Source of the DNA: Tenggerimyces flavus
Lineage (GTDB): Bacteria > Actinomycetota > Actinomycetes > Propionibacteriales > Actinopolymorphaceae
NCBI RefSeq assembly: GCF_016907715.1
Contig: NZ_JAFBCM010000001.1
Location: 3,906,001 to 3,970,000, forward strand
Direction of reading: 5' to 3'
Length of the DNA: 64,000 nucleotides
In this document: positions 3,308-20,753 of the stretch, piece after piece
Layout: each line of letters opens with the position of its first letter
How positions within the stretch are numbered: position 1 is the first letter of the stretch
Position numbers and translations under genes: made by a program
Notes under the pieces: model-generated
Database searches by the model: none
What the model saw: only the letters and a program-made list of their open reading frames with translations
Told to the model about the DNA's origin: nothing

Positions 3308-4747
3308 GTGTCTGTAGATCCCTATCGCACCCCTGACTCAGAGTTTCCCGTGCCTTTCGAGCAGCTCGACGACCCCGCGACGGGGGAGCTGGATCTCGAA
3401 GATCGCCAAGCGCTTCGCCGGGTTGCCGGATTCAGTACCGAGCTCGCGGACATCACCGAGGTCGAGTACCGGCAGCTGCAGCTCGAACGTGTCGTGCTCG
3501 TGGGCGTCTGGACCGAAGGAACCGCTGACGATGCCGAGAACTCCCTGCGAGAGCTGAAGCTGCTCGCGGAGACGGCCGGCTCGGAGGTTCTGGACGGCCT
3601 CATTCAGCGGCGTTCGCGGCCCGACCCGGCGACGTACATCGGTCGAGGCAAGGTCGAAGACCTCCGTGACTCAGTGCTGGAGAGCGGCGCCGACACCGTC
3701 ATCTGCGACGGTGAGCTGAGCCCTGCCCAGCTGCGTACGTTGGAAGAACGCACCAAGGTCAAGGTCATCGACCGGACCGCGTTGATCCTCGACATCTTCG
3801 CCCAGCACGCGAAGAGCAAAGAGGGCAAGGCGCAGGTCGAGCTCGCGCAGCTGTCGTACTTCCTTCCCCGCTTGCGTGGTTGGGGTGGCAACCTGTCCCG
3901 ACAGGGCGGTGGAGCCGGTGGCGGTGGCGGCAACGGCGGCGTGGGTCTGCGCGGTCCTGGTGAGACCAAGCTCGAGATCGACCGGCGGCGCATTCGTACG
4001 CGGATGGCCAAGCTGCGCAGGCAGATCGCGGACATGGCACCGGCGCGGGCGACGAAACGGCTGAACCGTAAGAGGAACGCCGTTCCGTCGGTCGCGATCG
4101 CCGGGTACACCAACGCGGGCAAGTCCTCGTTGCTCAACCGGCTCACCGGAGCAGGCGTGCTGGTCGAGGACGCGTTGTTCGCGACGTTGGACCCGACGAC
4201 GCGTCGGGCGGCGACGCCGGACGGGAAGCTGTTCACGCTGACCGACACGGTGGGCTTCGTACGGCACCTGCCGCACGAGCTCGTCGAGGCGTTCCGTTCC
4301 ACGCTGGAAGAAGTCGCGCAGGCCGACGTGGTCGTGCATGTGGTCGACGGCTCCAACCCGGACCCCGAGGGTCAGATCTCGGCCGTCCGCGAGGTGCTGT
4401 CCGACGCGGGCGCCGGCGACCTGCCGGAGATCATCGCGATCAACAAGGCCGACGTGGCCGACGCCCTCACCATCGCCCGCCTCCGCCGCCACGAGCCCCG
4501 CACGGTCGTGGTGTCGGCGAAGACAGGCGAAGGCGTGGCGGAGCTGCTCTCGATGATCGCCGAGGCGCTGCCGCGGCCCGACATCGAGGTCGACGCACTG
4601 GTCCCGTACGCCCGCGGCGACATCGTCGCGAAGGTGCACGAACGCGGCGAGGTGCTCTCCCTGGAACACACCGCCGACGGCACCCGCCTCAAGGCCCGGG
4701 TCGACCCAGCCCTGGCCGCCGACCTGAACGGCTATCAGCTCGCCTGA
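3308..4747 (+). CDS. hflX: GTPase HflX
   Basis: HflX (479 aa) is a translation-factor GTPase that binds the 50S subunit and splits stalled ribosomes under stress. The N-terminal HflX domain is followed by a glycine-rich linker (about residues 197-212) and the GPGETKLE motif. The G domain contains GYTNAGKSS (P-loop, near residue 266), DTVGF (G3), NKAD (G4) and SAKTGE (G5). The GTG at 3308 is preceded by GGAGAG and gives an N-terminus of normal length. A strong hairpin follows the stop codon. The gene is convergent with the ArsR-type gene. Confidence 0.96.
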   Translation: MSVDPYRTPDSEFPVPFEQLDDPATGELDLEDRQALRRVAGFSTELADITEVEYRQLQLERVVLVGVWTEGTADDAENSLRELKLLAETAGSEVLDGLIQRRSRPDPATYIGRGKVEDLRDSVLESGADTVICDGELSPAQLRTLEERTKVKVIDRTALILDIFAQHAKSKEGKAQVELAQLSYFLPRLRGWGGNLSRQGGGAGGGGGNGGVGLRGPGETKLEIDRRRIRTRMAKLRRQIADMAPARATKRLNRKRNAVPSVAIAGYTNAGKSSLLNRLTGAGVLVEDALFATLDPTTRRAATPDGKLFTLTDTVGFVRHLPHELVEAFRSTLEEVAQADVVVHVVDGSNPDPEGQISAVREVLSDAGAGDLPEIIAINKADVADALTIARLRRHEPRTVVVSAKTGEGVAELLSMIAEALPRPDIEVDALVPYARGDIVAKVHERGEVLSLEHTADGTRLKARVDPALAADLNGYQLA

Positions 4748-8047: not shown

Positions 8048-8692
8048 TCAGCTGTAGTAGGTGGGGCCCTGCGCGGGCGTCTTCTGCTTGCGGTCGCGGC
8101 TCGCCAGCAGCCAGGCGACGAGGATGCCGCCGATGGCGCCGAAGAGGTGGCCTTGGAAGGAGATGCCGTCCTGCGGCAGCAGGCCGCCGAGGAGGGCGCC
8201 GCCCCACACGAGGATGACGCCGACGCCGATCGCGAGCTGGCCGAGCTTGCGGTTGAAGATGCCGCGCACGATCAGGTACGTCGCGTACCCGAACACCAGG
8301 CCGCTCGCGCCGATCGTCACCGTGAACGACGGCGAGGTCAGCCAGGTGCCGATGCCCGAGATCAGTGCGACGCCGGCGGTCACCATCAGCAGCCTGTACG
8401 CGCCGCCGATCGCGATGAAGATGCCGAGCGTCACCAGCGGGATAGTGTTCGAGATCAGGTGCCCGAACCCGAGGTGCAGGAACGGCGCCGTGACGATCCC
8501 GACCAGCCCGTCCATGTCGCGAGCCTCGATGCCGTACGCGTCGAGCCGGTGCCCGAGCGCGGTGTCGAGGACCTCGCTGATCCACATCAGGCCCACGAGA
8601 ATGCCCAGGACCTGCAGACCGCCCACCACCCGCCGGGAAGTCTCGCTCGACTGCCGGCCGGACGGCTGCGGGTAGGAGTACGCGGCGCTCAT
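8048..8692 (-). CDS. Rhomboid family intramembrane serine protease
   Basis: This 214-residue membrane protein has about six transmembrane segments. The catalytic serine is Ser130 in GASGLVFG, and the partner histidine is His182 in SFQGHLFG. The HLGFGHLISN motif (His73, His78, Asn82) in an earlier helix matches the oxyanion region of rhomboids. It probably cleaves single-pass membrane proteins within the bilayer; the substrate is unknown. Length and motif order are normal for a short actinobacterial rhomboid. Confidence 0.92.
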   Translation of the reverse strand: MSAAYSYPQPSGRQSSETSRRVVGGLQVLGILVGLMWISEVLDTALGHRLDAYGIEARDMDGLVGIVTAPFLHLGFGHLISNTIPLVTLGIFIAIGGAYRLLMVTAGVALISGIGTWLTSPSFTVTIGASGLVFGYATYLIVRGIFNRKLGQLAIGVGVILVWGGALLGGLLPQDGISFQGHLFGAIGGILVAWLLASRDRKQKTPAQGPTYYS

Positions 8693-8886
8693 ACCTCTAC
8701 GATGCCCGACCGGCGTCGTTAGGGCGACTCACCGGCCGGTTTCTCACCCACTTCTTAACACCGGCGAGCGAGGGTGAGATGGCCGGACCCGGGCGTCGGG
8801 TCTTGCTCGCGTCCTGCCGCAAGCCCTACCGTCGCTTCGGATATGTGGATTAGTTTCTGAAATCCCGTAGACACCTGGGGGCGGCC

Positions 8887-10938
8887 ATGCGTACACGCCA
8901 TCTGCTCGGCATCCTGCTGGCCCTGGTGGCGGTGATCGCCACCACCGGACCCACGAACGCGGCCACCGGCACCGAACGACGCGTCGAGCTCCCGCCCGAG
9001 GGTGTGCTGTCGGCGATGACCGGCGGCAACACGGTCGGCGCGATCATCCGCGAGAAGAAGGCGCGCTCCGACGGCTACCTGCACCTCGACACGCCCGCGA
9101 TGATCAGGACCCTCAAGGCGATGCACGCCAACACATTCACGTACGGCGTCTGGGACGGCGACAAGGACTGGGACGACCTGCGCCTGGAGTTCGCGCCGGC
9201 GGCACAGAGAGCGGGCATCGACATCTGGGTCTACCTCGTCCCGCCGTCCGAGTGCTTCAACAACCAGGAAAGGCACCTGAACGGCAACTGCAGCCGCCCG
9301 TACGACCTCGACTTCATCACCTGGTCGACCGAGATCGCCAAGCTCTCCAAGAAGTACCCGAACATCAAGGCCTGGGCGATCGACGACTTCCTCTCCGGCC
9401 CGGGCAACCGCGCGCTGTTCACCAACGAGTACCTCAGCCAGGTCCGCGCCGCGCAGGACGCGATCAACCCGAAGCTCGGCTTCTACGTCACGCTCTACTT
9501 CGGCGAGATCGCGCCCGAGAACCTCGAGATCATCGACGGCGTGCTCGACGGCGTCATCTATCCGTACGTCGGGTACAACGCCGACACCAACGACACCGAC
9601 TGGGTCGAACGGCGCATCGACTCCGCGCTGCAGACGCTCGAGCCGTACGACCTCGACCTGGTTTTCCTCCAGTACACAGGGCGATTCCTCGACACGGTGA
9701 TCGAGCCGCACGAGGACACGGTCGCCGAGATCCTGCGCCGCGTGCAGCCCTACATCGACGACGGCCGCGTGATCGGCGTCATCGCGTACGCAGCGCCCGT
9801 CGCGCTGGACGAGCAGCAGGCGAGCTACACCAACCGCGGGCACAGTGGGAGCGGACGACTGTCGTTCAGCATCAACATGTTCACGGGCACGGCCGCCGGC
9901 GACTACGCGGAGGCGAAGCAGGAGGTCCGTGTTGACCCACGCGCTGCCAAGAAGGAGTTGACGTTCTTCCATCGCGACCCGTTTGGCCCATGGGCGTTGA
10001 AGGACTACCAGTTCAAGCAGCTACTCGTCGACGGCCAGGTCGCCTGGGAGTCCGACATCTCCGCCGACACCGGCTACACCTGGGCCAAGACCACGGTAGA
10101 CCTCACCGCGGCGCTGGCGGGCAAGCAGAAGGCGACGATCGCTTTCCGCCTGTTCCACAAGAACGGCGTCGGCCACTGGCCCACCGACGTGAGCATCGAC
10201 GACGTACGAGCGCGCGGGCTGACCGTACGCAACGGCGACTTCGAGAACGGCGGCGCGTGGACGCTGTCCGAGACGAACGAGGGCTTCCGCACGTTCATCG
10301 ACCAGTACCGCGCCGACCGCCAGGCGAGAATCATCAACGAGATCGGCAAGGTCTACGCCGACCTCCGCGGCGTGCGGCACCACAAGGTCGAGGCGCCGGC
10401 GTGGGCACGAGCGCAATGGAAGAAGCTGCGCACCGGCGGCGACAACGTCGCGTTCAACGGCAACGGGCGGCTGTCTTTCTCCCAGCCCGAGGGAACGACC
10501 TCGCCGGAGGGGGAGACCTGCGCGACCGCGTGGCAGGACGTCCGAGTCCAGCCCGGGCTGGACCGGTACGAGATCTCGTTCTGGCACGGTGACACCTGGT
10601 CGTTCGGCGGTGAGCACATCCAGCACAAGCAGCTCGTGATCGACGGCGAGGTGCTGTGGAAGCGGTCGACCCGCGACGCGTGGGACTGGTACCAGATCTA
10701 CGGCTCGGACCACCAGGGCGCAATCGACGTCACGGACTTCGTGAAAGGCAAGAAGCAGGTCCGGTTGGAGTTCCGGATGTGCAACGACAAGGCGTACGGC
10801 GAGCTGTTCATGGACGCGACGTTCGACGCCATCCGGACCGCCGGCCTCGACGTGCGCAACCCCGACTTCGAGACCACCGCGGCGTGGCACCTGACGTCGG
10901 AGGCACCGCTGCGGGCGCGGATCGCGATCAGCAGGTAG
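8887..10938 (+). CDS. Secreted glycosidase-like protein with duplicated C-terminal domains
   Basis: This 683-residue protein has a signal peptide (residues 1-26, MRTRHLLGILLALVAVIATT, cut after a TNA motif). Residues about 45-320 follow a TIM-barrel rhythm: an alternating strand/helix pattern with NIKAWAIDDF near residue 165 and VLDGVIYPYVGYN near 220, the kind of acidic strand ends found in glycoside hydrolases. Two related C-terminal units follow, at about 320-470 and 510-683. Each runs from a GRLSFS strand through a QLLVDG/QLVIDG strand to an ending of the type RARGLTVRNGDFENG or RTAGLDVRNPDFETT. They look like beta-sandwich carbohydrate-binding modules. The exact glycosidase family was not recognised. 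An ATG after a GGGGGC stretch is used. Confidence 0.7.
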   Translation: MRTRHLLGILLALVAVIATTGPTNAATGTERRVELPPEGVLSAMTGGNTVGAIIREKKARSDGYLHLDTPAMIRTLKAMHANTFTYGVWDGDKDWDDLRLEFAPAAQRAGIDIWVYLVPPSECFNNQERHLNGNCSRPYDLDFITWSTEIAKLSKKYPNIKAWAIDDFLSGPGNRALFTNEYLSQVRAAQDAINPKLGFYVTLYFGEIAPENLEIIDGVLDGVIYPYVGYNADTNDTDWVERRIDSALQTLEPYDLDLVFLQYTGRFLDTVIEPHEDTVAEILRRVQPYIDDGRVIGVIAYAAPVALDEQQASYTNRGHSGSGRLSFSINMFTGTAAGDYAEAKQEVRVDPRAAKKELTFFHRDPFGPWALKDYQFKQLLVDGQVAWESDISADTGYTWAKTTVDLTAALAGKQKATIAFRLFHKNGVGHWPTDVSIDDVRARGLTVRNGDFENGGAWTLSETNEGFRTFIDQYRADRQARIINEIGKVYADLRGVRHHKVEAPAWARAQWKKLRTGGDNVAFNGNGRLSFSQPEGTTSPEGETCATAWQDVRVQPGLDRYEISFWHGDTWSFGGEHIQHKQLVIDGEVLWKRSTRDAWDWYQIYGSDHQGAIDVTDFVKGKKQVRLEFRMCNDKAYGELFMDATFDAIRTAGLDVRNPDFETTAAWHLTSEAPLRARIAISR

Positions 10939-11206
10939 GACGGGTGGCGGGCGCCATCATGACGGCGGGGATCGTCCGGTCGAACGGGATCCCCGCCAGC
11001 GCCGCTGCCTCGGTGACGCGGCCGAGTTGGTCGGCGGCCACGACCAGGAGCACCACGTCGTCGTCCGGGATCGCGACGGCCGCCAGGATCGCGCCCTCGG
11101 GTACGGACGCCGCGAGGGCGGTCAGGTCAGGCGCGATCCCCGACTCCTCGTAGTGCTCGGCGAGGACGACCTGCCTCGGAGTCCACGCCGCTGCGCTCTC
11201 GGTCAT
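10928..11206 (-). CDS. Hypothetical protein (92 aa)
   Basis: This 92-residue protein begins MTESAAAWTPRQVVLAEHYE. It has a hydrophobic beta strand, AILAAVAIPDDDVVLLVVAADQ, and a C-terminal IPFDRTIPAVMM segment, suggesting a small alpha/beta fold. No family was recognised. It is convergent with the glycosidase-like gene and overlaps its last 11 bp. Codon use looks coding. No clear Shine-Dalgarno sequence precedes the ATG. Confidence 0.55.
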   Translation of the reverse strand: MTESAAAWTPRQVVLAEHYEESGIAPDLTALAASVPEGAILAAVAIPDDDVVLLVVAADQLGRVTEAAALAGIPFDRTIPAVMMAPATRPTC

Positions 11207-11260
11207 GGGCTGACCGTAAGGAATGCGAACGTGCCGGGGAATCAGGGAACCCCCTCGCCA

Positions 11261-11422
11261 TCACCCCTGCTCGATGCCGGGGAGCGCTTCGCCGTACCGC
11301 CAGAGGGCGGTGAGGTAGGTGAGGCCGAGGATGCTGAGGACGATGGTGGAGATGAGTCTGGGGGTGCGGTCCTCAGCTGAGGACCATATGGACCCGCCGT
11401 TTCTCCCAGCCGAAGTCGTTGT
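11261..11422 (-). pseudogene. Possible C-terminal remnant of a membrane protein
   Basis: On the minus strand a 54-codon frame runs from an upstream stop to TGA at 11263-11261 without ATG, GTG or TTG. It encodes RTPRLISTIVLSILGLTYLT followed by ALWRYGEALPGIEQG, a convincing transmembrane helix with almost exclusively G/C third positions. This looks like the tail of a gene whose 5' part is gone. It occupies most of the 292-bp gap 11207-11498. Confidence 0.25.
11368..11385. repeat. Perfect 18-bp palindrome
   Basis: GGTCCTCAGCTGAGGACC is a perfect palindrome without spacer. It lies inside the possible membrane-protein remnant and about 110 bp from the 3' end of the HNH gene. No partner gene is obvious, so its role is unknown. 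Confidence 0.35.
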
Positions 11423-11498
11423 TCAGAAGGGAAATCGGACGTTATAGGAGCCTTCCGCGACAAACGCCCCACGCGCGCCGCAGCCACCCGGCCGCTGT

Positions 11499-12752
11499 TT
11501 AGGCGGCTGGGGTGAGGCGGTGGTTGCGGAGTGGTCGTTGCTGGGGGTCGATCCAGTCGGGGGGTAAGAACTCGGGTAATCCGTCGAGTGCGATTCGGAC
11601 CTGCCATGCGCCTTGGTGGATCAGGCGGTGGTGATACCCACACAGCAGGACCCCGTTGTCCCGAGTGGTCGGACCGCCCTTACTCCACGGGACCACATGG
11701 TGGGCGTGACACCAGCCGGGTGGCCGGTCGCAGCCGGGGAACGCACACCCACCATCACGGAGCTCGAGCAACCGGCGGAGTTTGCCTTGGAACAGTCGCT
11801 GCTGGGTGTCGGTCAGCAGTGTGACGCGGCCGGGCTGGTCCTCGGGCTTGACCAAGAATGCCCGGTCGGCTTCGCACATCAGCTGGTCGACGAGTTTGCG
11901 GGACAGTTCGATCCCGGTGTGCAGAGTCCGCCCACCAGTGTTCGTGAGGGTGACGACGAGCTGGGTGGGGTTCCCGCCATGGGAGGGAACGAGCCGCTCG
12001 GCTAGCAACCGGCGGCAGGCCTCATCCAGAGCATCGACGTTGCGTTGTTCGGGGAGGCGGGTGTCGCGGCCGTCGGGTCCGGGCTGGGGTGCGGCGAGCG
12101 GGTCGAGGAAGAGTTTGAGTCGTTCTCCGACGAGTTTGGGGAGCCGGGCGGTGACCCGCCACGTCCCCGAGGTGGCGTCGAAGGACATGCGCAGGAACCG
12201 GTCCCGTTCGGCGCTGGCTTCTTCTTGTTTGAGCTTCAGTTCCAGGACCTGGTCGGCAAGATCGGGAGCGACGGTCTCCAAGAGCCTGTTCCCGACCTTC
12301 GACAAGACTTTGGGGTCGAAGGTCGCGGCTTGCTTCAGCAGAGTGGCTTCGACTTGGGAACGCAGCTCCGGCGTCGAAATGTGGGAGGGCAGCAGCTGCA
12401 CCACCCGCGAGATCACCCGCGCATGCGGAACAGAAATCTCACCCTCAGCCAACGCTCGCGCGGTCGCCGGAAGCTCGGCGTCGAGATGAGAGGCTAATTT
12501 CACCATCGCCCCGGCCTCAGCAGTCGGGACCCGAAGCCGACCAGCAACCCACTGCGCGGTGTTCGCGGCGCCGGCGGTGACGGCGAGGTTGCGGGAGTCG
12601 GCCTCGCGGATCAGTTCGAGCTGGCGGCCCTGGAGTTGGTTCAGCTGGGTGGCGTTGTCGAGGAGTGCGGTGGTGAGTTGGTCATCGGACATCGACCACG
12701 CCGACACACCATCGGCGGTGCCGGTGGTGTTCGAGCAGGTGGTCGATTTCAT
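11499..12752 (-). CDS. DUF222/13E12-type HNH endonuclease
   Basis: This 417-residue protein belongs to the actinobacterial 13E12 repeat family. The helical DUF222 domain spans about residues 20-260 (ELPATARALAEGEISVPHARVI is characteristic). A C-terminal HNH nuclease domain follows at about 335-385: GGCAFPGCDRP with metal-ligand cysteines, then CHAHHVVPWSKGG and LLCGYHHRLIH. Family members occur in many near-identical copies per genome and are suspected mobile or homing-like elements; their biological role is not established. A near-consensus extended -10 (TGGTAGAAT) ends 6 bp before the ATG, predicting a leaderless transcript. A 112-bp cloverleaf-forming repeat lies 180 bp upstream. Confidence 0.93.
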   Translation of the reverse strand: MKSTTCSNTTGTADGVSAWSMSDDQLTTALLDNATQLNQLQGRQLELIREADSRNLAVTAGAANTAQWVAGRLRVPTAEAGAMVKLASHLDAELPATARALAEGEISVPHARVISRVVQLLPSHISTPELRSQVEATLLKQAATFDPKVLSKVGNRLLETVAPDLADQVLELKLKQEEASAERDRFLRMSFDATSGTWRVTARLPKLVGERLKLFLDPLAAPQPGPDGRDTRLPEQRNVDALDEACRRLLAERLVPSHGGNPTQLVVTLTNTGGRTLHTGIELSRKLVDQLMCEADRAFLVKPEDQPGRVTLLTDTQQRLFQGKLRRLLELRDGGCAFPGCDRPPGWCHAHHVVPWSKGGPTTRDNGVLLCGYHHRLIHQGAWQVRIALDGLPEFLPPDWIDPQQRPLRNHRLTPAA

Positions 12753-12758
12753 AGCGCA

Positions 12759-12789
12759 ATTCTACCAGCCGGATCGGTCTAATGCCCAA
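12759..12789 (-). promoter_or_regulatory. Predicted promoter of the HNH gene
   Basis: Read on the minus strand, TTGGGC (12789-12784) and TGG-TAGAAT (-10 at 12764-12759) are separated by 19 bases. The extended TGN before the -10 compensates for the long spacer. Initiation about 7 bases downstream would fall on the start codon itself, giving a leaderless mRNA. Confidence 0.45.
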
Positions 12790-12934
12790 CCCGGCAAGGG
12801 AAATCTCCCGGCTTCATCCGCCACCACAAGAGACCGGGGGCTCCACAAGCAGCCGCAACACGGCCACAGACCCAAGGCGCAGGCAGGCCTTGCCCGGGAC
12901 CCTGTTCCGGGGGCAGGGGCGGCGCGTGAAAATC

Positions 12935-13046
12935 TGGTGGCCGGTCCGGGGCGAGTCAAGGGCCGCAAAGCGGTCGCGTAGCGACGCCTCTCTCCTCCGC
13001 GAAGCGCCCCAGAGAGGCGCCCTTGACGCGCCCGGACCGGCCACCA
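12935..13046. repeat. Long inverted repeat able to form a cloverleaf, next to the DUF222-HNH gene
   Basis: The outer arms are 12935-12963 and 13019-13046 (from TGGTGGCCGGTCC to GGACCGGCCACCA). They pair over 28 positions with one mismatch and one single-base bulge. Enclosed are three perfect hairpins in a row: CCGC-AAA-GCGG (12963-12973), TCGC-GTA-GCGA (12974-12984) and CGCCTCTCT/AGAGAGGCG (12985-13019), the last with an inner CGC-GAA-GCG. The result is a four-way junction. The rest of 12753-13430 is non-coding on inspection, with a strong purine/pyrimidine strand bias from 13081 to 13340 and no other long hairpin except the terminator at 13431. Confidence 0.85.
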
Positions 13047-13430
13047 CCATCGACCGCCGCCACAGCCCGACCAGCTCATCCACCCAAGCACAGCAGGGCA
13101 AAGCAACAGCAAGAGCAGAAGCACAGCACAGGCCCCCAAAAGAGGCGATGGCGGAGAGGACGGGAGTGACGGTCGAGAGAGGCAGGAGCGACCGGGCAAT
13201 GGACGATGGTGGAGAGGTGGGAATATGCGCGGCGTCAGGGTGGGGTGATGGTCGCGGGCGCGCAAGGTCGCCGGGGTTAGTGGGTGAAGTGACAGCCCAG
13301 TGGGTGAAAGTGGCGGCCCGACGGGCGAGGTGAGAATGGTGGAGAGGGTGGGAGTACCGCCGACCACGCTGAGATCGACCTGAGCGCTGTCGGCCAAGTG
13401 CATGTCGCAGTCCAGCAGAAGCCCACGACA

Positions 13431-13456
13431 AACGCCCCCTCAAAAGAGGGGGCGTT
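13431..13456 (-). terminator. Terminator of the gltA remnant and luxR-type gene
   Basis: Perfect 11-bp arms AACGCCCCCTC and GAGGGGGCGTT enclose an AAAA loop. The hairpin starts 21 bases past the stop codon of the citrate synthase remnant on the minus strand, where the original gltA terminator would be expected. It should now end luxR transcripts. Confidence 0.75.
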
Positions 13457-13476
13457 CGACGGATCCAACGAAGAAA

Positions 13477-13662
13477 CTACCGCTGACCGATAGGAACGAA
13501 AGGACGCTCCGGCTCACCGACGTAAACCTGGCGCGGCCGACCGATCTTCGTCGCGGGGTCGTTGTTCATCTCCCGCCACTGGGCGATCCACCCAGGCAAC
13601 CGGCCAAAGGCGAACAGCACCGTGAACATCTTCGTCGGAAAGCCCACAGCCCGATAGATCAA
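13477..13662 (-). pseudogene. gltA: Citrate synthase 3' fragment (last 61 codons)
   Basis: Minus-strand codons ending in TAG at 13479-13477 encode LIYRAVGFPTKMFTVLFAFG and then RLPGWIAQWREM, TKIGRPRQVYVGE and PERPFVPIGQR. This is the well-known C-terminus of bacterial type II citrate synthase. The family protein has about 430 residues; everything before this point is missing and replaced by the end of the LuxR-type gene, whose stop codon (13659-13661) overlaps the first fragment codon in another frame. The native-looking terminator just downstream is retained. It is a remnant, not an expressed enzyme, and marks a recombination or deletion junction. Confidence 0.8.
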
Positions 13663-16412
13663 CCACGTATGACAGCGCCGAGCTCCGCACGCGAGCGGAT
13701 GCCGAGCTTCCGGTAGATCCGGGTGAGGTTGGCCTCGACCGTCTTCGGGCTGAGGAACAGCGCTTCGGCGATCTCCCGCGTCGTCGCGCCACCCGCCGCG
13801 GCCTTGGCGACCTGGGTCTCGGTCGCCGTGAGCCCGGCCGGTGCCGGCGGCCTGCCGCCGATGCGGTCGCGCTCGGACTTCGCGCGCTCGACCCAGGCGG
13901 TCGCGCCCAGCTTCTCGAAGCCGGCGATCGCCGCGTCCAAGGCCAGCCGCGCCGCCGCCTTGGCCCGGGCGCGGCGGTGCAGCCTGCCGGCGACGAGTTG
14001 CGCGCGGGCCTGGTCGAACGGCGGCAACGGCTCGCCCTCGACCTCCGCGAGCGCCGCCTCGACCAGCGCGGCACCGTCCCCCGGTGTCCCGCGCAGGCTG
14101 GCGATCAGCCCGTGCCCGACCGCCGCGGCGAGCCGCAGCCGGGCGCGAGGGATGACCTCGTGGCGTTCGTCCAGCCGCTTGACGTACGCGGCCAGCTCGG
14201 CGTCGTCCGCGCCCGAGCCGCTCATCGCCTCGAGCTGGTCGAGCTCGATGCGGACGCCGACCGGCTCGACATGGCCCATCTTGTCCAGCTGCCCGCTGAT
14301 CTCGCGGAGGCGGTCCGCGGCGGCCACGTACTCGCCACTGGTGACCTCGGCGGTCGCGAGCAGGCGCATGCCCACCCGGGCCAGCCAGGTGTCGCCGGCC
14401 TCGTCGCCACGTCGCATCACGTCGGTGCCGTGGCTGCGTGCCTCGGCGGAGTCGCCGCGGTAGGCGGCGAGCAGGTGGCCGACGAAGTCCGCCTGCGTCG
14501 TCGGTACGTCGAGCTCGCCGGCGAGTGCGGTCGCCTGGTCGACGTAGCGCGCCGCGAGCTCCCAGTCGCCGGCGAGGAACTCGTTGTCGGCGAGGTGCGG
14601 CAGCAGTTCGAGCACCGACGCCTCGTCGCCCGCGTCCCGGGCCCGCTCCAGCATCGCCACGTACCGCGCGCGTGCGGCGTCGAAGTCGTCGATCGCCTTG
14701 TACCAGATGCCCACGGTCGTGCTGTGCTGACGACCTGGCCGACTCGACTCGAGCGCCAGCCCCTCGTCGAGCATGGTCAGGTCCGGACGCTGGCCGTTGA
14801 GAATCTCGCTGTAGAACGTCTGGAACAGCGCGAACGCGAGCCACTCGTGCTCGTCGGTGCCGCGGAGCAGCTCGATCGCGCGGTGGCCGTGGTCGAGCCA
14901 ACGGTCCTCCGGCGCCATCACCGTCAGGTGCGCGTGCACCCTGCCCTCGGCGATCGGGTGGCCGGCCGCGGCGTCGAGCGCCGACGTGGCGTGCCACTCC
15001 GCGGCGGCCGAGTCGTCGGCGTGCCAGGAGCTGGTGGCGAGCAGCAGATAGGCCTCGGCTCGGTCGTGACCGAGCGGGAGGGTGTCGAGGTGCATGGTCA
15101 GCCAGTGCTGGGCAGCGCCGAGGTCACCGGAAGCGGCGCGCGACTGGCCGGCGAGCAGGATCCGCCTCGGTGCGTTGGGGCTGCCCTCCGGCGTGGCTTC
15201 GGCCGCCTGTTCGGCGAGGTCGGCGGCGACGTCGAGCGCGCCGCGGCGGCTGGCCAGGCGGGCAGCGTCTTCCAGCGTGGCGGCGAGCTGCTCGTCGGGC
15301 TCGACGCTTGCGGCGGCGAGGTGGCGGGCTCGTCGTTCGACATCGGTGACCACGTCGGCGAGGCGCTGGTGCAGCCTGCGGCGCTCGGGGTCGGGGATGC
15401 CGGCGCGGACGACGCTCGCGTACACCGGATGGGTGAACCTGACCTGGCCGCCGCCCAGGCTGATCAGGCCAGCCTCCTCGGCAGCCTGCAGCGCGTCGGC
15501 GACGTCCTGCTCGCTGGCCGCGGCGAGCACGTCGAAGCTCGCGGGTGCGGCGAGGGCGGCCAGCCGGAGGGCCTGCGTGGTCTCGAGGTCCAGGCCGGAG
15601 AGGCGGTCGGCGATCAGGCCGGTGAGGCTCGACGGTACGGGCAGCTCGCGGCTCGGCGCGGGGAGCTTGGGGAGCGCGGAGATCGCGCGGCCGAGCTCGA
15701 GGGTGAACAGCGGGTTGCCGTCGGACGCGGTCGCCACGGAGGCGAGCAGCTGGCGGGGGAGCGAGAGGCCGAGCTGATCTCTGAGCAGGTGGTGGAGCGC
15801 GCCCGTACGCATGCCGCCGACCGTGATGCGGTGCACGGCCTCGGGCGGGAGGATGCGTTCGATGTCGAGGGCCTCGCTGGGGCCGTGGGAGTGGCGCGGG
15901 TCGAAGTCGTCGGGGCGCCTTGCCGCGATGACGACGAGCGGGGCGTCGGTGATGCGTCTCAGGGCGAACCTGAGGACGCGTACGGACGGGGCGTCCAGCC
16001 AGCGGACGTTGTCGATGACCAGGACGGTGGGATCGCTGGAACGGCCGAGCAGCCCTCTGGTCGCGAAGCAGAGGGCGCGCTCGTCGGCGACCTGGTCCGG
16101 CTCGTCGTGCCGGAGCAGTGCGATCTCAACGGCCTGGCGCTGCGGGGTGGGGAGGTCGCTCGCGAGTCCTACGACTGGCTCGAGCAGGTCGGCGACGGCG
16201 GCGTACGTGAGCGTGGTCTCGAGCTCGGTCGGCTGGCAGCGGAGCACCTGATACCCGCGTTCCCTCGCCAACTCCGCGGCTGCGTTGAGGAGGGCGGTCT
16301 TCCCGATCCCGATGGGACCGTCGACCACAAGCGCGACCGGCCGCTGCGGAACGTCGGCGAGCAGCCGTTCGCACACGGCCAGCTCGGCGTCCCGTCCGAT
16401 CAACCCCCGCAT
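13659..16412 (-). CDS. LuxR-family regulator with AAA/NACHT-like ATPase domain (LAL type)
   Basis: This 917-residue protein is a large ATP-binding LuxR regulator. The N-terminal ATPase has Walker A GPIGIGKTA (residues 33-40) and a Walker B-like PTVLVIDNVRWLDAP, where the usual second acidic residue of DD is Asn. A long helical TPR-like middle (about 350-830) is followed by a C-terminal LuxR helix-turn-helix: LTATETQVAKAAAGG, TTREIAEALFLSPKTVEANL, TRIYRKLGIRSR. LAL proteins usually activate secondary-metabolite or sugar-utilisation operons in response to an inducer. No target is evident here. Its 3' end lies exactly at the gltA remnant, so the gene probably arrived by the event that removed gltA. 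Confidence 0.92.
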   Translation of the reverse strand: MRGLIGRDAELAVCERLLADVPQRPVALVVDGPIGIGKTALLNAAAELARERGYQVLRCQPTELETTLTYAAVADLLEPVVGLASDLPTPQRQAVEIALLRHDEPDQVADERALCFATRGLLGRSSDPTVLVIDNVRWLDAPSVRVLRFALRRITDAPLVVIAARRPDDFDPRHSHGPSEALDIERILPPEAVHRITVGGMRTGALHHLLRDQLGLSLPRQLLASVATASDGNPLFTLELGRAISALPKLPAPSRELPVPSSLTGLIADRLSGLDLETTQALRLAALAAPASFDVLAAASEQDVADALQAAEEAGLISLGGGQVRFTHPVYASVVRAGIPDPERRRLHQRLADVVTDVERRARHLAAASVEPDEQLAATLEDAARLASRRGALDVAADLAEQAAEATPEGSPNAPRRILLAGQSRAASGDLGAAQHWLTMHLDTLPLGHDRAEAYLLLATSSWHADDSAAAEWHATSALDAAAGHPIAEGRVHAHLTVMAPEDRWLDHGHRAIELLRGTDEHEWLAFALFQTFYSEILNGQRPDLTMLDEGLALESSRPGRQHSTTVGIWYKAIDDFDAARARYVAMLERARDAGDEASVLELLPHLADNEFLAGDWELAARYVDQATALAGELDVPTTQADFVGHLLAAYRGDSAEARSHGTDVMRRGDEAGDTWLARVGMRLLATAEVTSGEYVAAADRLREISGQLDKMGHVEPVGVRIELDQLEAMSGSGADDAELAAYVKRLDERHEVIPRARLRLAAAVGHGLIASLRGTPGDGAALVEAALAEVEGEPLPPFDQARAQLVAGRLHRRARAKAAARLALDAAIAGFEKLGATAWVERAKSERDRIGGRPPAPAGLTATETQVAKAAAGGATTREIAEALFLSPKTVEANLTRIYRKLGIRSRAELGAVIRG

Positions 16413-16442
16413 GCTCTAGATCATGACATCAAGGTGCGTGAA

Positions 16443-16474
16443 ATGGCGCCCGGTTTGCACGGATATCGCGCCAT
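16443..16474. promoter_or_regulatory. Inverted repeat upstream of the luxR-type gene
   Basis: ATGGCGC and GCGCCAT (7 bp, perfect, 18-base spacer) lie 31 bp upstream of the start codon. This could be an activator or repressor site; no known consensus was matched. Confidence 0.25.
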
Positions 16475-16502
16475 GCCAACGCCTGCCACCCGCCGATCTT
16501 TA

Positions 16503-16525
16503 GGGTGCCTTTAGGCCTAGCACCC
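16503..16525 (-). terminator. Hairpin after the DHA2 exporter gene
   Basis: GGGTGC and GCACCC arms (6 bp) with an 11-base loop lie 22 bp beyond the stop codon of the exporter on the minus strand. It is weak, without a T-run. Confidence 0.4.
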
Positions 16526-16546
16526 ATGCCGGCCAGCGGTACGACC

Positions 16547-18094
16547 TCATGGTTCCTGCCGTTGGTTGGTGGGCTCGATGCGGCGCAGCAGGACGACGGC
16601 GACGACGGCGAGGGCGGCAACGACGACGGCGGTGATGCCGGCGACGGTCTGCATGCCGTCGACGAACGCCTCGCGCGCGGCGTCGAGCAGGGCCGGTCCG
16701 GTGTCGGCGGGCAGCCGTTCGGCGACCTCGGTCGCGCTCGCCAACGTGTCCTGGCTGGCCTCGGCCGCCTGCTCGTCGAGGCCGGCCGGCATCGTGTCGA
16801 CGAGCCGATCCCGGTAGACGAACGTCCCGAGCGCGCCGAGCGCCGCGATGCCCACCGCGACGCCGAACTCGCCGCTGGTCTCGAGCATCGAGCCGGCCGA
16901 GCCCGCCTTCTCCGGTGGCGCCGACGCGACCACGATGTCGGTGCTCAGCACCATCGTCGGCGCGGCGCCGATGTGCACCAGGACGGCACCGGCGATGAGG
17001 AAGCCGAGCCCGGTACCGCCACCCACCCCGGCGATTACCGCCAACCCGACCGCGGTCACGGCGAGCCCCGCCGCGGCGACGTATGCCGGCCGCAGCCGCC
17101 GTGCGAGCAGCGGAGCCAGCACGGCGACCGCCATCTCGCTCAGCGCGGCGGGCATCATCCACAGTCCGGCGCGCAGCGGCGAGAGTCCGTCGACGAGTTG
17201 GAGGTACTGCGCGATGTACAGGTACCCGCCGGCGAGCACCATCATCGCGACGAGCAGCATGCCGAGTGCGGCGCAGAACGAACGCGAGGCGAAGAGCCGG
17301 ACGTCCAACAACGGGTTGTCAAGGCGACGTTGACGACGGACGAACCGCCAGCCGAGAATCAGCCCGGCCGCGATCGCGAGCAGCGCGATCGGTCGCGGGC
17401 CTTCCTCGGCGAGCTGCTTCAGTCCGTAGATCGCGGGCAGCACCGTGCCGAGCGAGAGCGCGACGCTGACGAGGTCGATTCGGCTTGTGGTGTTGGCGTT
17501 CCGTACCTCCGGCAGCACGATCGGACCGAGTACGAGCAGCAGCACCATCACCGGAACGCCGAGCAGGAAGACCGAACCCCACCAGAACGACTCCAGCAGC
17601 GCGCCGCCGACGACCGGCCCGAGCACCGTTCCGCCGGAGAAACAGGCGGTCCAGATGCCGAACGCGAGGCCGCGTTCCCTCGGGTCGGTGAACAGCTGGC
17701 GCACGAGGACGAGCGACGCCGGCATCAGCGTCGCGGCGGCCACCCCGAGGAGTGCGCGGGAGACGATGAGCATCTCGGCGGAGGTCGAGTACGCCCCGAG
17801 GATCGAGAGCGCGCCGAACGCGACCGCGCCGACGAGGATCAGCCGGCGGGCGCCGATGCGGTCGGCGAGGCCGCCCATCGTGACGAGGAACCCGGCGATG
17901 AGGAAGCCGTACACGTCCAGGATCCACAGCAGCTGCGGGCCGCTGGGGCGGAGGTCGGCCGCGAGCTGCGGGCCGGCGAGGAACAGCACGCTGTTGTCGA
18001 GGGCGAGCAGCAGGATCGGAAGGGCCAGCACTGCGAGGCCCAGCCAGCGCCGCGGCGTACCCGTAAGGACCGGTGGTGCGACGGTCGAAGACAT
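16547..18094 (-). CDS. MFS transporter, DHA2 (14-TM) drug-efflux family
   Basis: This 515-residue membrane protein has about fourteen hydrophobic segments. The start, LALPILLLALDNSVLFLAGP followed by LLWILDVYGFLIAGFLVTMG, is close to the SmvA/QacA group, which export cationic and lipophilic compounds. Motif A reads GGLADRIGARRLILVG and the antiporter motif C region reads GGTVLGPVVGGAL. It is divergent from a TetR gene, with a perfect palindrome in the shared promoter region. Repression by that TetR protein and induction by a substrate is the expected arrangement. Confidence 0.92.
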   Translation of the reverse strand: MSSTVAPPVLTGTPRRWLGLAVLALPILLLALDNSVLFLAGPQLAADLRPSGPQLLWILDVYGFLIAGFLVTMGGLADRIGARRLILVGAVAFGALSILGAYSTSAEMLIVSRALLGVAAATLMPASLVLVRQLFTDPRERGLAFGIWTACFSGGTVLGPVVGGALLESFWWGSVFLLGVPVMVLLLVLGPIVLPEVRNANTTSRIDLVSVALSLGTVLPAIYGLKQLAEEGPRPIALLAIAAGLILGWRFVRRQRRLDNPLLDVRLFASRSFCAALGMLLVAMMVLAGGYLYIAQYLQLVDGLSPLRAGLWMMPAALSEMAVAVLAPLLARRLRPAYVAAAGLAVTAVGLAVIAGVGGGTGLGFLIAGAVLVHIGAAPTMVLSTDIVVASAPPEKAGSAGSMLETSGEFGVAVGIAALGALGTFVYRDRLVDTMPAGLDEQAAEASQDTLASATEVAERLPADTGPALLDAAREAFVDGMQTVAGITAVVVAALAVVAVVLLRRIEPTNQRQEP

Positions 18095-18117
18095 ATCGGA
18101 GGTCCTCTCGGAATTAC

Positions 18118-18132
18118 GTTACGAGTCGTAAC
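18118..18132. promoter_or_regulatory. Probable TetR operator
   Basis: GTTACGA-G-TCGTAAC is a perfect 15-bp palindrome in the 63-bp gap between the divergent exporter and TetR genes. Adjacent half-site-like repeats (ATTACG on the left, TTAACGAGTAGAC on the right) suggest that two dimers may bind. Confidence 0.65.
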
Positions 18133-18157
18133 ATAACTTAACGAGTAGACTTGGACC

Positions 18158-18829
18158 GTGCAACCACGTCAGGCCAGTGGCCGTCCTCGCGACGTGCGGA
18201 TCGATGCCGCCGTCCTCGACGCGACGCTGGCCGTCCTCGCCGAGACCGGGTACCGGCGGCTCACGCTCGAGGAGGTCGCGCGGCAGGCGGGGACGACCAA
18301 GCCGGCGATCTACCGCCGCTGGGCCGGGCGCGAACGCCTGGTGCTGGCCGCGCTCGCGCGAGAGCTCGGCGAGATCGACACGCCCGACACCGGCTGCACG
18401 ATCTGCGATCTCGGCGAGTGCCTGAGCGTCTTCATCGGCTCGTTCCGCCGGATGCCGCCGGACGTCCTCGGGCCGCTGTACGCGGACTGCGCGGGCACGC
18501 CGGAGCTCCACGACGAGTTCATGTGCGTGCTGTTCGACCCGCCGCGCTCAGCCGTCGCTCGTACGATCACCCGCGCGATCGCGCGCGGCGACCTGCGCGC
18601 CGATCTCGACGCCGGGCTGACGTTGGACCTGATCGGCGCGTTCGTCCACTACCGCGTGCTGTTCGGGCACGCCTCGACCGAGGTGAACGAGATCTCCCAC
18701 GTCGTCGAGACGTTGCTGCACGGGATCGCCACCGACTACCCGGCGCTGCTCGCGCACAGCCTCGAGCTCGAGGCCGCCGCCCAAGCCCAGCAGACGCACC
18801 ACCTGCACCGGGCCGCGCCGGAGCGGTAA
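18158..18829 (+). CDS. TetR/AcrR family repressor
   Basis: This 223-residue protein has an N-terminal TetR DNA-binding domain: RIDAAVLDATLAVLAETGYR, LTLEEVARQAGTTKPAIYRRW. The remainder is the ligand-binding helical domain. Cys80, Cys83 and Cys88 cluster in TGCTICDLGECL, just after the DNA-binding domain, where related repressors usually have no cysteines; a redox or metal response is conceivable. A GTG start at 18158 is used; no good Shine-Dalgarno sequence is present. It probably controls the divergent DHA2 exporter and itself. Confidence 0.92.
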   Translation: MQPRQASGRPRDVRIDAAVLDATLAVLAETGYRRLTLEEVARQAGTTKPAIYRRWAGRERLVLAALARELGEIDTPDTGCTICDLGECLSVFIGSFRRMPPDVLGPLYADCAGTPELHDEFMCVLFDPPRSAVARTITRAIARGDLRADLDAGLTLDLIGAFVHYRVLFGHASTEVNEISHVVETLLHGIATDYPALLAHSLELEAAAQAQQTHHLHRAAPER

Positions 18830-18841
18830 CGACGCTTCGAG

Positions 18842-18885
18842 TTGTTGGACAGATCTCGCCTTCTAGGCCGAGATCCGTCCAACAA
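18842..18885. terminator. Bidirectional terminator between tetR and the S9 peptidase gene
   Basis: Long arms starting TTGTTGGACAGATCTCG and ending CGAGATCCGTCCAACAA pair over about 18 bases with one mismatch and one bulge around a short loop. It lies between the convergent stop codons. Confidence 0.8.
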
Positions 18886-18890
18886 GTCGG

Positions 18891-20753
18891 TCAGGCGTCG
18901 CTCTGCGACCGGCCGCCGCCGAGGTGCTCGGCGAGGAAGCGCTCCACCGCCGCGTAGTAGATCTCCCTGTTCTCCGGGCGGGCGAGGCCGTGGCCCTCGT
19001 CCGGGAACACCAGGTACTCGTGCGGCAGGCCCTTCGCCTTCAACGCGTCGACGATCTGCTCCGCCTCCGCCTGCTTCACCCGCGGATCGTTCGCGCCCTG
19101 GGCGACGAGCACGGGGATCGCGATGTCGTCCACGCGCGACAGCGGCGAGCGCTCCCAGAGGAAGTCCTTCTCGGTCTCCGGGTCGCCGATCTTGCCGTAC
19201 ATCATCGCGATCATCGGCTTCCAGTACGTCGGCAGCGACGCGAGCAGCGTGAGCAGGTTGGACGGGCCGCACATGTCAACGGCACAACGGAAAACGCCCG
19301 GAGTGAAGGCCGCGCCGGCGAGGGCCGCGTACCCGCCGTACGAGCCGCCGTAGATCGCGACCCGGCTCGCGTCGATCCGTCCCAGCGACGCGAGGTGGTC
19401 GACCGCGTCGAGCAGGTCGGTGTGCATCGCGGCGCCCCACTCCTTGTCGCCCGCGTTGCCGAACGCCTTCCCGTACCCGGTCGAGCCGCGGAAGTTGACC
19501 TGCACGCAGGCGTAGCCGCGGTTGGCGAGCCACTGTGCCTCGGAGTGGTAGCCCCACTCGTCGCGGTGCCACGGGCCGCCGTGCACGTTGACCACCGCGG
19601 GCAGCGCTTGCGGGTCGACGTTCGGCGGGTACGTCACGTACCCGTGCACCTCGAGTCCGTCGCGCGCGTTGAACGAGAACGGCTCCATCACCGCGAGCTG
19701 GTAGCCGTCGAGCTCGGGGCGCTGCCCGAACAGGAAGGTGGCCTTGCCGGTGACCTTGTCGAACACGTAGTACCGGCCGGACCCGTCGGACACGTCGACC
19801 GCGATCAGCCAGAACTGGTCGGTCCGCTCGGTGCGGTTGACGGTGAGGTCGCCGTCGATGCCGATCGCCGCCTCGACCTGCGCCATCGCGGCGGAGTAGC
19901 TCGGGTCCAGGAAGACCCGCTCGGACCGGTCCTTGGCGAACACCACGCCCTGCGGCACACGCGTCATCGGGTCGAGCTCGACCCCGTCGACGTCGTACGC
20001 GGGATCGTCGGCGAGCACGGTCTCGGTGCCGCTCGCCAGGTCGATCGCGACCAGCCTCGCGGCGTTCGCTCCGATCGAGGAGACGAGGTAGAGCGTGCTG
20101 CCGTCGCGGGAGAAGCCGATCGTGTCGGTCGTGACCGCGTCGTCGGACGGCACCTCGAGCCAGGCCTCGGGCTCGTTGGTCTGCGGCGAGATCCGGTAGT
20201 ACGTGATGCCGCCGTCCTCGTTCATCGACGCGCCGCCGCGGACGTCGAGGTTGGTGTCGAGCAGCCAGGTGACGAAGCCGGGGGTGTTCTCGACGACCTT
20301 CTCCAGTTCGTCGGTCGCCAGGTCGAGCCGGTAGAGGTCGTGCAGCTCGGGGGTGTCCTTGTTGATGCCGAGGATCATCACGGTGGGGTTCCACCGGTTG
20401 TGCCCGAGCACGCGGACCTGTACGCCGTCGAACGGGGTGGGGCAGCGCTCCTCGCCGCTCTCGAGGTCGAGCAGATGCAGCCGCCAGTTCTCGTCCCCGT
20501 CGGCGTCCTGCAGGTAGTAGAGGTGCTTGTCGTCGTGCGTGAAGCCGTACACGCGAATGCCCTGCCCGCGATCATGCGTGACCGCGCGCGCCTGGTCTGG
20601 TGCGTCGATCGGGCCGACCCAGACGTTCAGCACCCCCTCCTCCGGCGCGAGGAACGCGAGCCACCGCCCATCCGGCGAGATGGTCGGCATCGCGTACGTC
20701 GGGTTCCCGAACAGAACCGAGCGCGGAATCAACGGAACGGCGTCGTAGGTCAT
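18891..20753 (-). CDS. S9 family (prolyl oligopeptidase-like) peptidase
   Basis: This 620-residue protein has an N-terminal beta-propeller (TISPDGRWLAFLAP is a typical blade) and a C-terminal alpha/beta-hydrolase. The catalytic triad is Ser471 in GGSYGGY, Asp556 in GANDPRV and His588 in DEGHG. No signal peptide is visible, so it is probably cytoplasmic, cleaving short peptides or acyl-amino acids. Length matches dipeptidyl/acylaminoacyl peptidases. It is divergent from the flavin oxidoreductase gene across a 117-bp gap and convergent with tetR. Confidence 0.95.
   Translation of the reverse strand: MTYDAVPLIPRSVLFGNPTYAMPTISPDGRWLAFLAPEEGVLNVWVGPIDAPDQARAVTHDRGQGIRVYGFTHDDKHLYYLQDADGDENWRLHLLDLESGEERCPTPFDGVQVRVLGHNRWNPTVMILGINKDTPELHDLYRLDLATDELEKVVENTPGFVTWLLDTNLDVRGGASMNEDGGITYYRISPQTNEPEAWLEVPSDDAVTTDTIGFSRDGSTLYLVSSIGANAARLVAIDLASGTETVLADDPAYDVDGVELDPMTRVPQGVVFAKDRSERVFLDPSYSAAMAQVEAAIGIDGDLTVNRTERTDQFWLIAVDVSDGSGRYYVFDKVTGKATFLFGQRPELDGYQLAVMEPFSFNARDGLEVHGYVTYPPNVDPQALPAVVNVHGGPWHRDEWGYHSEAQWLANRGYACVQVNFRGSTGYGKAFGNAGDKEWGAAMHTDLLDAVDHLASLGRIDASRVAIYGGSYGGYAALAGAAFTPGVFRCAVDMCGPSNLLTLLASLPTYWKPMIAMMYGKIGDPETEKDFLWERSPLSRVDDIAIPVLVAQGANDPRVKQAEAEQIVDALKAKGLPHEYLVFPDEGHGLARPENREIYYAAVERFLAEHLGGGRSQSDA

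Follow-up and report, generated by a model that had tools for sequence, protein, structure and literature searches.

A REP-like cloverleaf repeat and its association with DUF222-HNH genes in Tenggerimyces flavus and other actinobacteria

A REP is a short hairpin. The structured elements of the HEARO/IscB omega RNA type lie upstream of an HNH gene, with the RNA on the coding strand, and MITEs are short non-coding copies that share an end with gene-bearing copies and come with a target-site duplication and a transposase partner. RAYT genes reportedly lie between two REPs in inverted orientation and occur where REPs are abundant (PMC2817692); REPs are described as insertion targets of ISs (PMC1525189). 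The DUF222 repeats of mycobacteria are, according to the DIVE paper, the REP13E12 repeats, that is, multicopy DUF222-HNH genes (PMC10589994).

The element described here lies beside a DUF222-HNH gene in a stretch of 64,000 nucleotides of the Tenggerimyces flavus genome (referred to below as "the window"). It is like the REP/BIME and RAYT systems (REPtrons) in forming some 100 dispersed intergenic palindromes and mosaics with other palindromic units, in having a nuclease gene inside the repeat, and in suffering IS110-family insertions into the palindrome; it differs from them in being a four-way junction of 110 bases, in its enzyme, which is DUF222-HNH rather than a Y1 HUH transposase (Y1 is without a match in this genome), and in that the cloverleaf stands on one side of the gene only. 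With REP13E12 (13E12) it has in common multicopy DUF222-HNH genes as a dispersed repeat, 27 of them in this genome; we know of no cloverleaf in REP13E12 repeats. As with HEARO/IscB omega RNA there is a structured element upstream of an HNH gene, and the HNH domains belong to one superfamily; unlike it, the cloverleaf is on the strand opposite to the gene, with no promoter of its own seen, and the DUF222 protein has no IscB match, nor the element an Rfam match. Short non-coding copies have an end in common with gene-bearing copies, as in MITEs, but no target-site duplication was found, nor a transposase partner for the cloverleaf. Titles and the beginnings of abstracts, mainly of non-subscription papers, yielded no description of the repeat or of its link to DUF222 (PMC10123090 concerns DUF2220, not DUF222).

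The cloverleaf and its fold

The cloverleaf occupies positions 12936-13045 of the window (+ strand), as delimited by folds, a 40-copy alignment, pair counts and a match to the covariance model R1 at 12936-13046; the + strand is assigned to it as the one with GNA-type hairpin loops. It is a four-way junction composed of an outer stem, an inner stem and three consecutive hairpins. The outer stem, read from folds and alignment, joins a left arm of 18 bases (12936-12953, +), lineage-specific in sequence, to a right arm of 17 (13029-13045, +), with one bulge. An A.G mismatch (12954/13028) separates it from the inner stem, in which GTCAAGGG (12955-12962, +), conserved across actinobacterial orders, forms 8 bp with CCCTTGAC (13020-13027, +). 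Within the inner stem follow hairpin 1, CCGC-AAA-GCGG in the window (12963-12973, +; from pair counts), whose loop in this genome is mostly AAA, TCC or AAC; hairpin 2 (12974-12984, +), with the loop GTA in the window copy and GAA in 38 of 40 copies; and hairpin 3 (12985-13019, +), in which two pairs show compensatory changes and whose tip is a second small hairpin, CGC-GAA-GCG, with GAA in 40 of 40 copies.

As RNA the cloverleaf folds at -84.9 kcal/mol (z -8.0), as DNA the + strand at -51.7 (z -9.0) and the - strand with z -7.5; in each of the three cases none of 200 shuffles was as good. The stem enclosing three hairpins, which a preliminary description of this DNA had read as a four-way junction, is thereby confirmed. 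A tRNA reading of the cloverleaf was rejected, the window's one tRNA sitting elsewhere, and pairing of the CACCTGTT loop with AACAGGTG in a pseudoknot was weighed by eye and dropped. A consensus scan of 12700-13500 gave no promoter-like site for the cloverleaf itself, no terminator-like site was found at it, and no Rfam family reached its gathering score in the window or in five related loci.

Pairing is kept in the face of sequence change. Among the 40 copies of this genome (38 distinct), standard pairs fill 97.2% of the pair cells, a share that drops to 36-45% if the partners are shifted along. Double changes fill 22 cells against 5.0 in shuffles and affect four pairs (in 9, 7, 5 and 1 sequences), and a compensatory CG<->TA change at the base of hairpin 1 is found in 9 of the 38 distinct copies; the number of pairs with a double change (4, against 3.2 shuffled) and that of further pair types (7, against 9.2) are not above shuffles. 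Invariant pairs make up 27 of 45 (17, 1, 4, 3 and 2 by helix), and in 28 of 38 copies the two bases of one outer-stem pair, at alignment columns 10/108, do not match. On the + strand there are 32 G.T cells to 5 A.C cells, or 9 to 4 as distinct changes (57 distinct best-strand rows), an excess that leans toward the + strand and that RNA would give likewise.

The pattern extends to 20 chosen cores from outside this genome. The inner parts of all 20 split wholly into three perfect hairpins, as none of 4000 shuffled inners did, and 13 different hairpin-1 stems occur among them, every one complementary. GNA loops account for 55 of their 60 loops; since the search patterns demanded one CGAAG, about one loop per core was preset by selection, and leaving out those that the pattern demanded the count is 35 of 40. 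GNA loops together with G-C pairs give unusually stable DNA mini-hairpins, according to PMC4686876. The stem covariation for which the preliminary description had proposed to search is thus present, both in the double-change cells and in the different hairpin-1 stems, and a conserved structure is supported in either of the forms then envisaged, DNA structure or RNA.

A dispersed repeat, in this genome and in others

That the cloverleaf is a repeat goes beyond the preliminary description, which had missed it. A 132-base query against the genome scored 40 copies (window copy included) of 126 candidates, at 86-100% identity; the covariance model R1, built from these 40 aligned copies, returned at least 150 rows, which, once merged, leave at least 103 distinct sites across the 8.5 Mb of the genome, 48 of the 103 on the plus strand and 55 on the minus strand. 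When the 39 other copies (L010-L048) were fetched with 4 kb on either side, 13 proved to have a DUF222-HNH gene at one spacing and orientation, with 80-95% identity to the protein of the window, and 26 had no match to the gene within those 4 kb. Compared with the window copy, the 26 solo and the 13 gene-bearing copies have in common a core of about 262 bp (12807-13068, +; some alignments are slightly longer), beyond which the solo copies have shared flanks of their own, built of other palindromic repeats. A crude gene caller places 33 of 35 solo copies outside called ORFs, and the neighbours of the 35 are tandem in 19 cases, convergent in 10 and divergent in 6. With 103 sites and mostly intergenic solo copies, the family is a dispersed intergenic palindromic repeat of about 100 or more copies, and in that sense REP-type.

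Other palindromes accompany it. A 55-base palindromic unit (TTGAATGAAGGGCACC...AACCTATT...) flanks many solo copies, and does so on both sides in L021 and L022. At about 4440-4600 of the oriented locus, L042 has a second inverted repeat, ending CAATGTCAAGGG...CCCTTGACATTG and with hairpins inside; the stretch that holds it is common to L029, L034, L043 and L047, and it is possibly a sister family with equal inner ends.

Plasmids and phages gave no match to the window core at E 1e-5. In seven other genomes of the family R1 found none (best 150 of 8,097-19,376 candidates per genome scored), and the DNA consensus matched this genome alone among 293 of the order (best 2 candidates per genome scored), probably because outer stems diverge. 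The core is unlike the outer stem in this respect: TCAAGGG, three hairpins and CCCTTGA, or near variants (some with TTTA at the end or with an imperfect third hairpin), are conserved in at least three actinobacterial orders. The exact core pattern picks out 33 stretches in a genome collection, of which 21 are from Amycolatopsis bartoniae, four from Labedaea rhizosphaerae, two from Actinophytocola xanthii, and one each from Actinopolymorpha pittospori, A. alba, a Pseudonocardia, Terrabacter tumescens, a Microbacteriaceae MAG and another MAG; the named matches fall in the orders Pseudonocardiales, Propionibacteriales and Micrococcales (three species looked up). Of 394 genomes of the class, 13 contain a looser pattern and 2 a reversed control; the looser pattern is also found in 7 of 9 genomes in a targeted search, in which some matches in two genomes (G297 and G300) look unrelated. 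Several genomes of the genus g55 also carry copies, frequently arranged in inverted pairs with a spacing of about 0.8-1.8 kb (L184-L195; G692, G693, G708, G667, G723, G700), whose interiors hold other palindromes and are mostly without a clear gene; a search for an empty site, with one g55 locus against 81 genomes, recognised no syntenic one among the matches listed.

What spreads the repeat? In four of the 21 A. bartoniae loci an IS110-family element sits near one point of hairpin 3 (L074 at 4817, L078 at 7499, L084 at 718 and L087 at 6244, all +; Pfam DEDD_Tnp_IS110 and Transposase_20 in the copy scanned), which makes the repeat a target of the IS. The Y1 transposase (PF01797) has no match in this genome, in A. 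bartoniae, Labedaea or A. xanthii, or in G434 and G529; of eight genomes tested, G316 and G450 alone have one. Mobilisation of the RAYT/IS200 type was for that reason rejected in this genome. A REP-like family of four-way junctions in at least three orders, with no Y1 in six of eight genomes, points to some other activity as the one that spreads it.

The DUF222-HNH gene, its unit and its protein

The DUF222-HNH gene of the window (11499-12752, -) is an intact ORF of 417 aa with Pfam matches to DUF222 (E 9e-37) and HNH, and 183 bases lie between its ATG and the cloverleaf. The sole promoter-like site found in 12700-13500, TGGGCA-18-TAGAAT (12759-12788, -; a consensus match only), stands 6 bases before the ATG and hence between gene and cloverleaf, so that the element is not in the leader of the gene; as had been proposed, the gene seems to have no leader and to start downstream of the cloverleaf.

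Gene and cloverleaf belong to a repeated unit of 1.7 kb (approximately 11472-13172, from comparison of copies, the ends of which vary), with a GC-rich inverted repeat over the stop codon at its left end (approximately 11487-11510). None of the 27 DUF222 frames of this genome has an internal stop, and the genes are under purifying selection (median dN/dS 0.13; 254 close pairs, 25 sequences). The cloverleaf lies upstream of 23 of the 27, on the opposite strand and 265-292 bp from the domain, mostly within the 1.7-kb unit; 80 of the 103 cloverleaf sites are without a DUF222 gene. The 22 main gene-bearing copies look like one amplified lineage, so that 23 of 27 does not stand for 23 independent events; L207 belongs to another DUF222 lineage, and its cloverleaf has a different outer stem. 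The gene-bearing units that were compared have only one cloverleaf, on the upstream side, and not two inverted flanking copies. For the whole unit, neither a target-site duplication nor an empty site was found (the genus is represented by one genome). The mobile-repeat character ascribed to DUF222-HNH genes in the preliminary description gains support from the equal place and orientation in 23 of the 27.

Some units lack the cloverleaf. L209 is 94.7% identical in nucleotide sequence to L207 over 1482 bases and is without it, and so is L208, which is closely related to the window unit. Each of the two retains a piece of one arm, and the joints are at 4-base repeats (CGGA; GGCC); this looks like loss of the cloverleaf by replication slippage rather than clean transposition, a hint that folding of the strand takes place in the cell. 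In the case of L207 and L209, the cloverleaf of L207 may instead be an insertion.

The pairing recurs elsewhere, in part. In Labedaea (Pseudonocardiales; DUF222 31-33% identical), a DUF222 gene accompanies 11 of the 12 strict-pattern elements, with the element upstream on the opposite strand and 167-197 bp from the domain; 11 of the 30 DUF222 genes of Labedaea are paired in this way. The only pattern match of G641 adjoins its only DUF222 gene in a like arrangement, 377 bp from the domain, and that protein has a DUF222 match and no HNH match at E 0.001. Together with the 23 of 27 here, these counts support the non-random link that had been claimed. DUF222 has no match in 9 of 22 other element-bearing genomes (2 of 8 and 7 of 14), so that DUF222-HNH cannot be the general carrier and was rejected as such; the remaining 11 of the 14 genomes with both (this genome being among the 14) showed by eye no pair among the matches listed. 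Thirty DUF222 loci fetched from other genomes have the pattern in 5 of 6 cases from Labedaea and in none of 24 from Actinopolymorpha, Terrabacter, the Microbacteriaceae MAG and Pseudonocardia. One copy in Actinopolymorpha alba (L093) has an HNH-part match about 1.2 kb off on the same strand, which is a different arrangement, and the nearest outside DUF222 relatives, from that species, are without the element. In a 19-row tree the window lineage groups with element-free Actinopolymorpha DUF222, apart from Labedaea, so that the pairing of cloverleaf and DUF222 was gained more than once or lost. DUF222 copies number 27 to 77 per genome in four of the genomes searched.

The preliminary description had set conservation beside other DUF222 genes against occurrence at sites without them, and both are found: stems covary and the link recurs, but the 80 sites and nine genomes lack the gene. 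Of the roles it offered to a nuclease next to such a structure, that of a possible partner stands for some lineages, and that of a general carrier falls with the same nine genomes.

What kind of protein is this? An AlphaFold2 model built on 15 aligned proteins has a mean pLDDT of 71; within residues 21-160 the means by block are 81-94. Residues 36-164 align with ParB/Noc/Spo0J DNA-binding domains at Z up to 10.3 (a value that helical bundles may also attain by chance) and an rmsd of 2.1-2.3 over 101-103 residues; such domains are 12 of the first 13 rows in the structure search, though no plain Foldseek E-value is better than 0.09. The C-terminal part aligns with the HNH domains of IscB (Z 7.3), TagI (7.0) and EcoKMcrA (6.5). 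In a profile search of solved structures IscB comes first, over the HNH part only (E 4e-5); PADLOC and NCBIfam give weak HNH matches only, the NCBIfam IscB model scoring 12.1 bits against a cut-off of 175, and the Pfam domains of the window protein are DUF222 and HNH only. DUF222 thus models as a ParB/Noc-like DNA-binding domain, and the protein, to judge from the model, probably binds and cuts DNA.

Recruited end, passenger, RNA or host site

The interpretation that we put forward, with a probability of roughly 0.4, is that the cloverleaf is a REP-like DNA foldback repeat that DUF222-HNH mobile units have more than once adopted as their recognition end. In this genome one repeat lineage has become linked to a DUF222-HNH gene in the 1.7-kb unit, and the unit has multiplied. 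In the mechanism of mobility that we infer, a strand made single in replication or repair would fold into the cloverleaf; the DUF222-HNH protein would bind the palindromic end and nick or cut at that place or at related copies; and the 1.7-kb unit would then be copied to the cut site by gene conversion or repair. The solo copies would be spread by some activity. In a more ambitious form of the idea, which we consider doubtful, the DUF222-HNH units would be mobile elements in their own right and form a new enzymatic class: an HNH nuclease that binds palindromes and resembles ParB would recognise the single-stranded cloverleaf at the unit end and mobilise the unit, as well as solo cloverleafs in trans where these are present, as an HNH counterpart of RAYT/REP. 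If true, the 13E12 repeats of actinobacteria, which have been known for long, would be accounted for as well.

Recruitment has a rival that we regard as nearly as likely, though it too is tentative: a REP-like repeat that owes its spread to the host or to another enzyme may have landed upstream of DUF222 a few times and been copied along with a gene that multiplies itself, with no functional tie between protein and structure. The element-bearing genomes without DUF222 (9 of 22), the sites without the gene (80 of 103), the near-identical units with and without a cloverleaf (L207 and L209, at 94.7%) and the element-free nearest relatives in Actinopolymorpha are all what a passenger would leave behind; it fits less well that at least four seemingly separate pairings (the main lineage, L207, Labedaea and G641) agree in side and orientation, at 167-377 bp from the domain, that the gene stands beside 11 of 12 strict-pattern elements in Labedaea and 1 of 1 in G641, and that the cloverleaf has been kept at 23 of 27 DUF222 copies here. 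That the + strand is instead transcribed into a guide or scaffold of the DUF222-HNH protein, in the manner of IscB omega RNA, seems improbable. Stem covariation and the excess of G.T over A.C cells on the + strand (32 to 5; 9 to 4 as distinct changes) would suit an RNA, as would some hairpin-1 loops that read G(CTTG)C, which is an RNA tetraloop motif, and the weak match of the HNH profile to the HNH of IscB (E 4e-5). Against it stand the strand of the element, opposite to the gene, the want of a promoter-like site for it and of an Rfam family at gathering score, loops that are GNA triloops of the DNA type, the presence of the element in genomes without DUF222, and a protein in which Pfam sees only DUF222 and HNH and which scores 12.1 bits with the NCBIfam IscB model (cut-off 175); the guide-RNA role considered in the preliminary description has gained no positive support.

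A use by the host, as a terminator, an insulator or a site for a chromosome protein, kept for the host's sake and multiplied by recombination, is more improbable still. That all but two of the 35 solo copies examined lie clear of called ORFs (crude caller) would agree with it, and REPs elsewhere bind host proteins (PMC2817692); but gene ends are not preferred (19 tandem, 10 convergent and 6 divergent neighbours), no terminator-like site was found at the cloverleaf, and the distribution is patchy, with one genome of 293 in the order matched (best 2 candidates per genome scored). For DUF222 (13E12), which is poorly understood, the findings have a practical side: a conserved DNA that can fold and that keeps a fixed position beside the gene in three lineages, taken with a model of the domain as DNA-binding, provides a directly testable substrate.

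Two observations concern the surroundings of the units. At their left flanks, L013, L014 and L019 on the one hand and L011, L012, L016, L020 and L044 on the other stop at the stop codon against two other shared repeats, which points to assembly of mosaics from repeats. Beside the repeat unit of the window, a reading frame fragment (13477-13660, -) adjoins a LuxR-type gene; its tail presumably resembles the C-terminus of citrate synthase.
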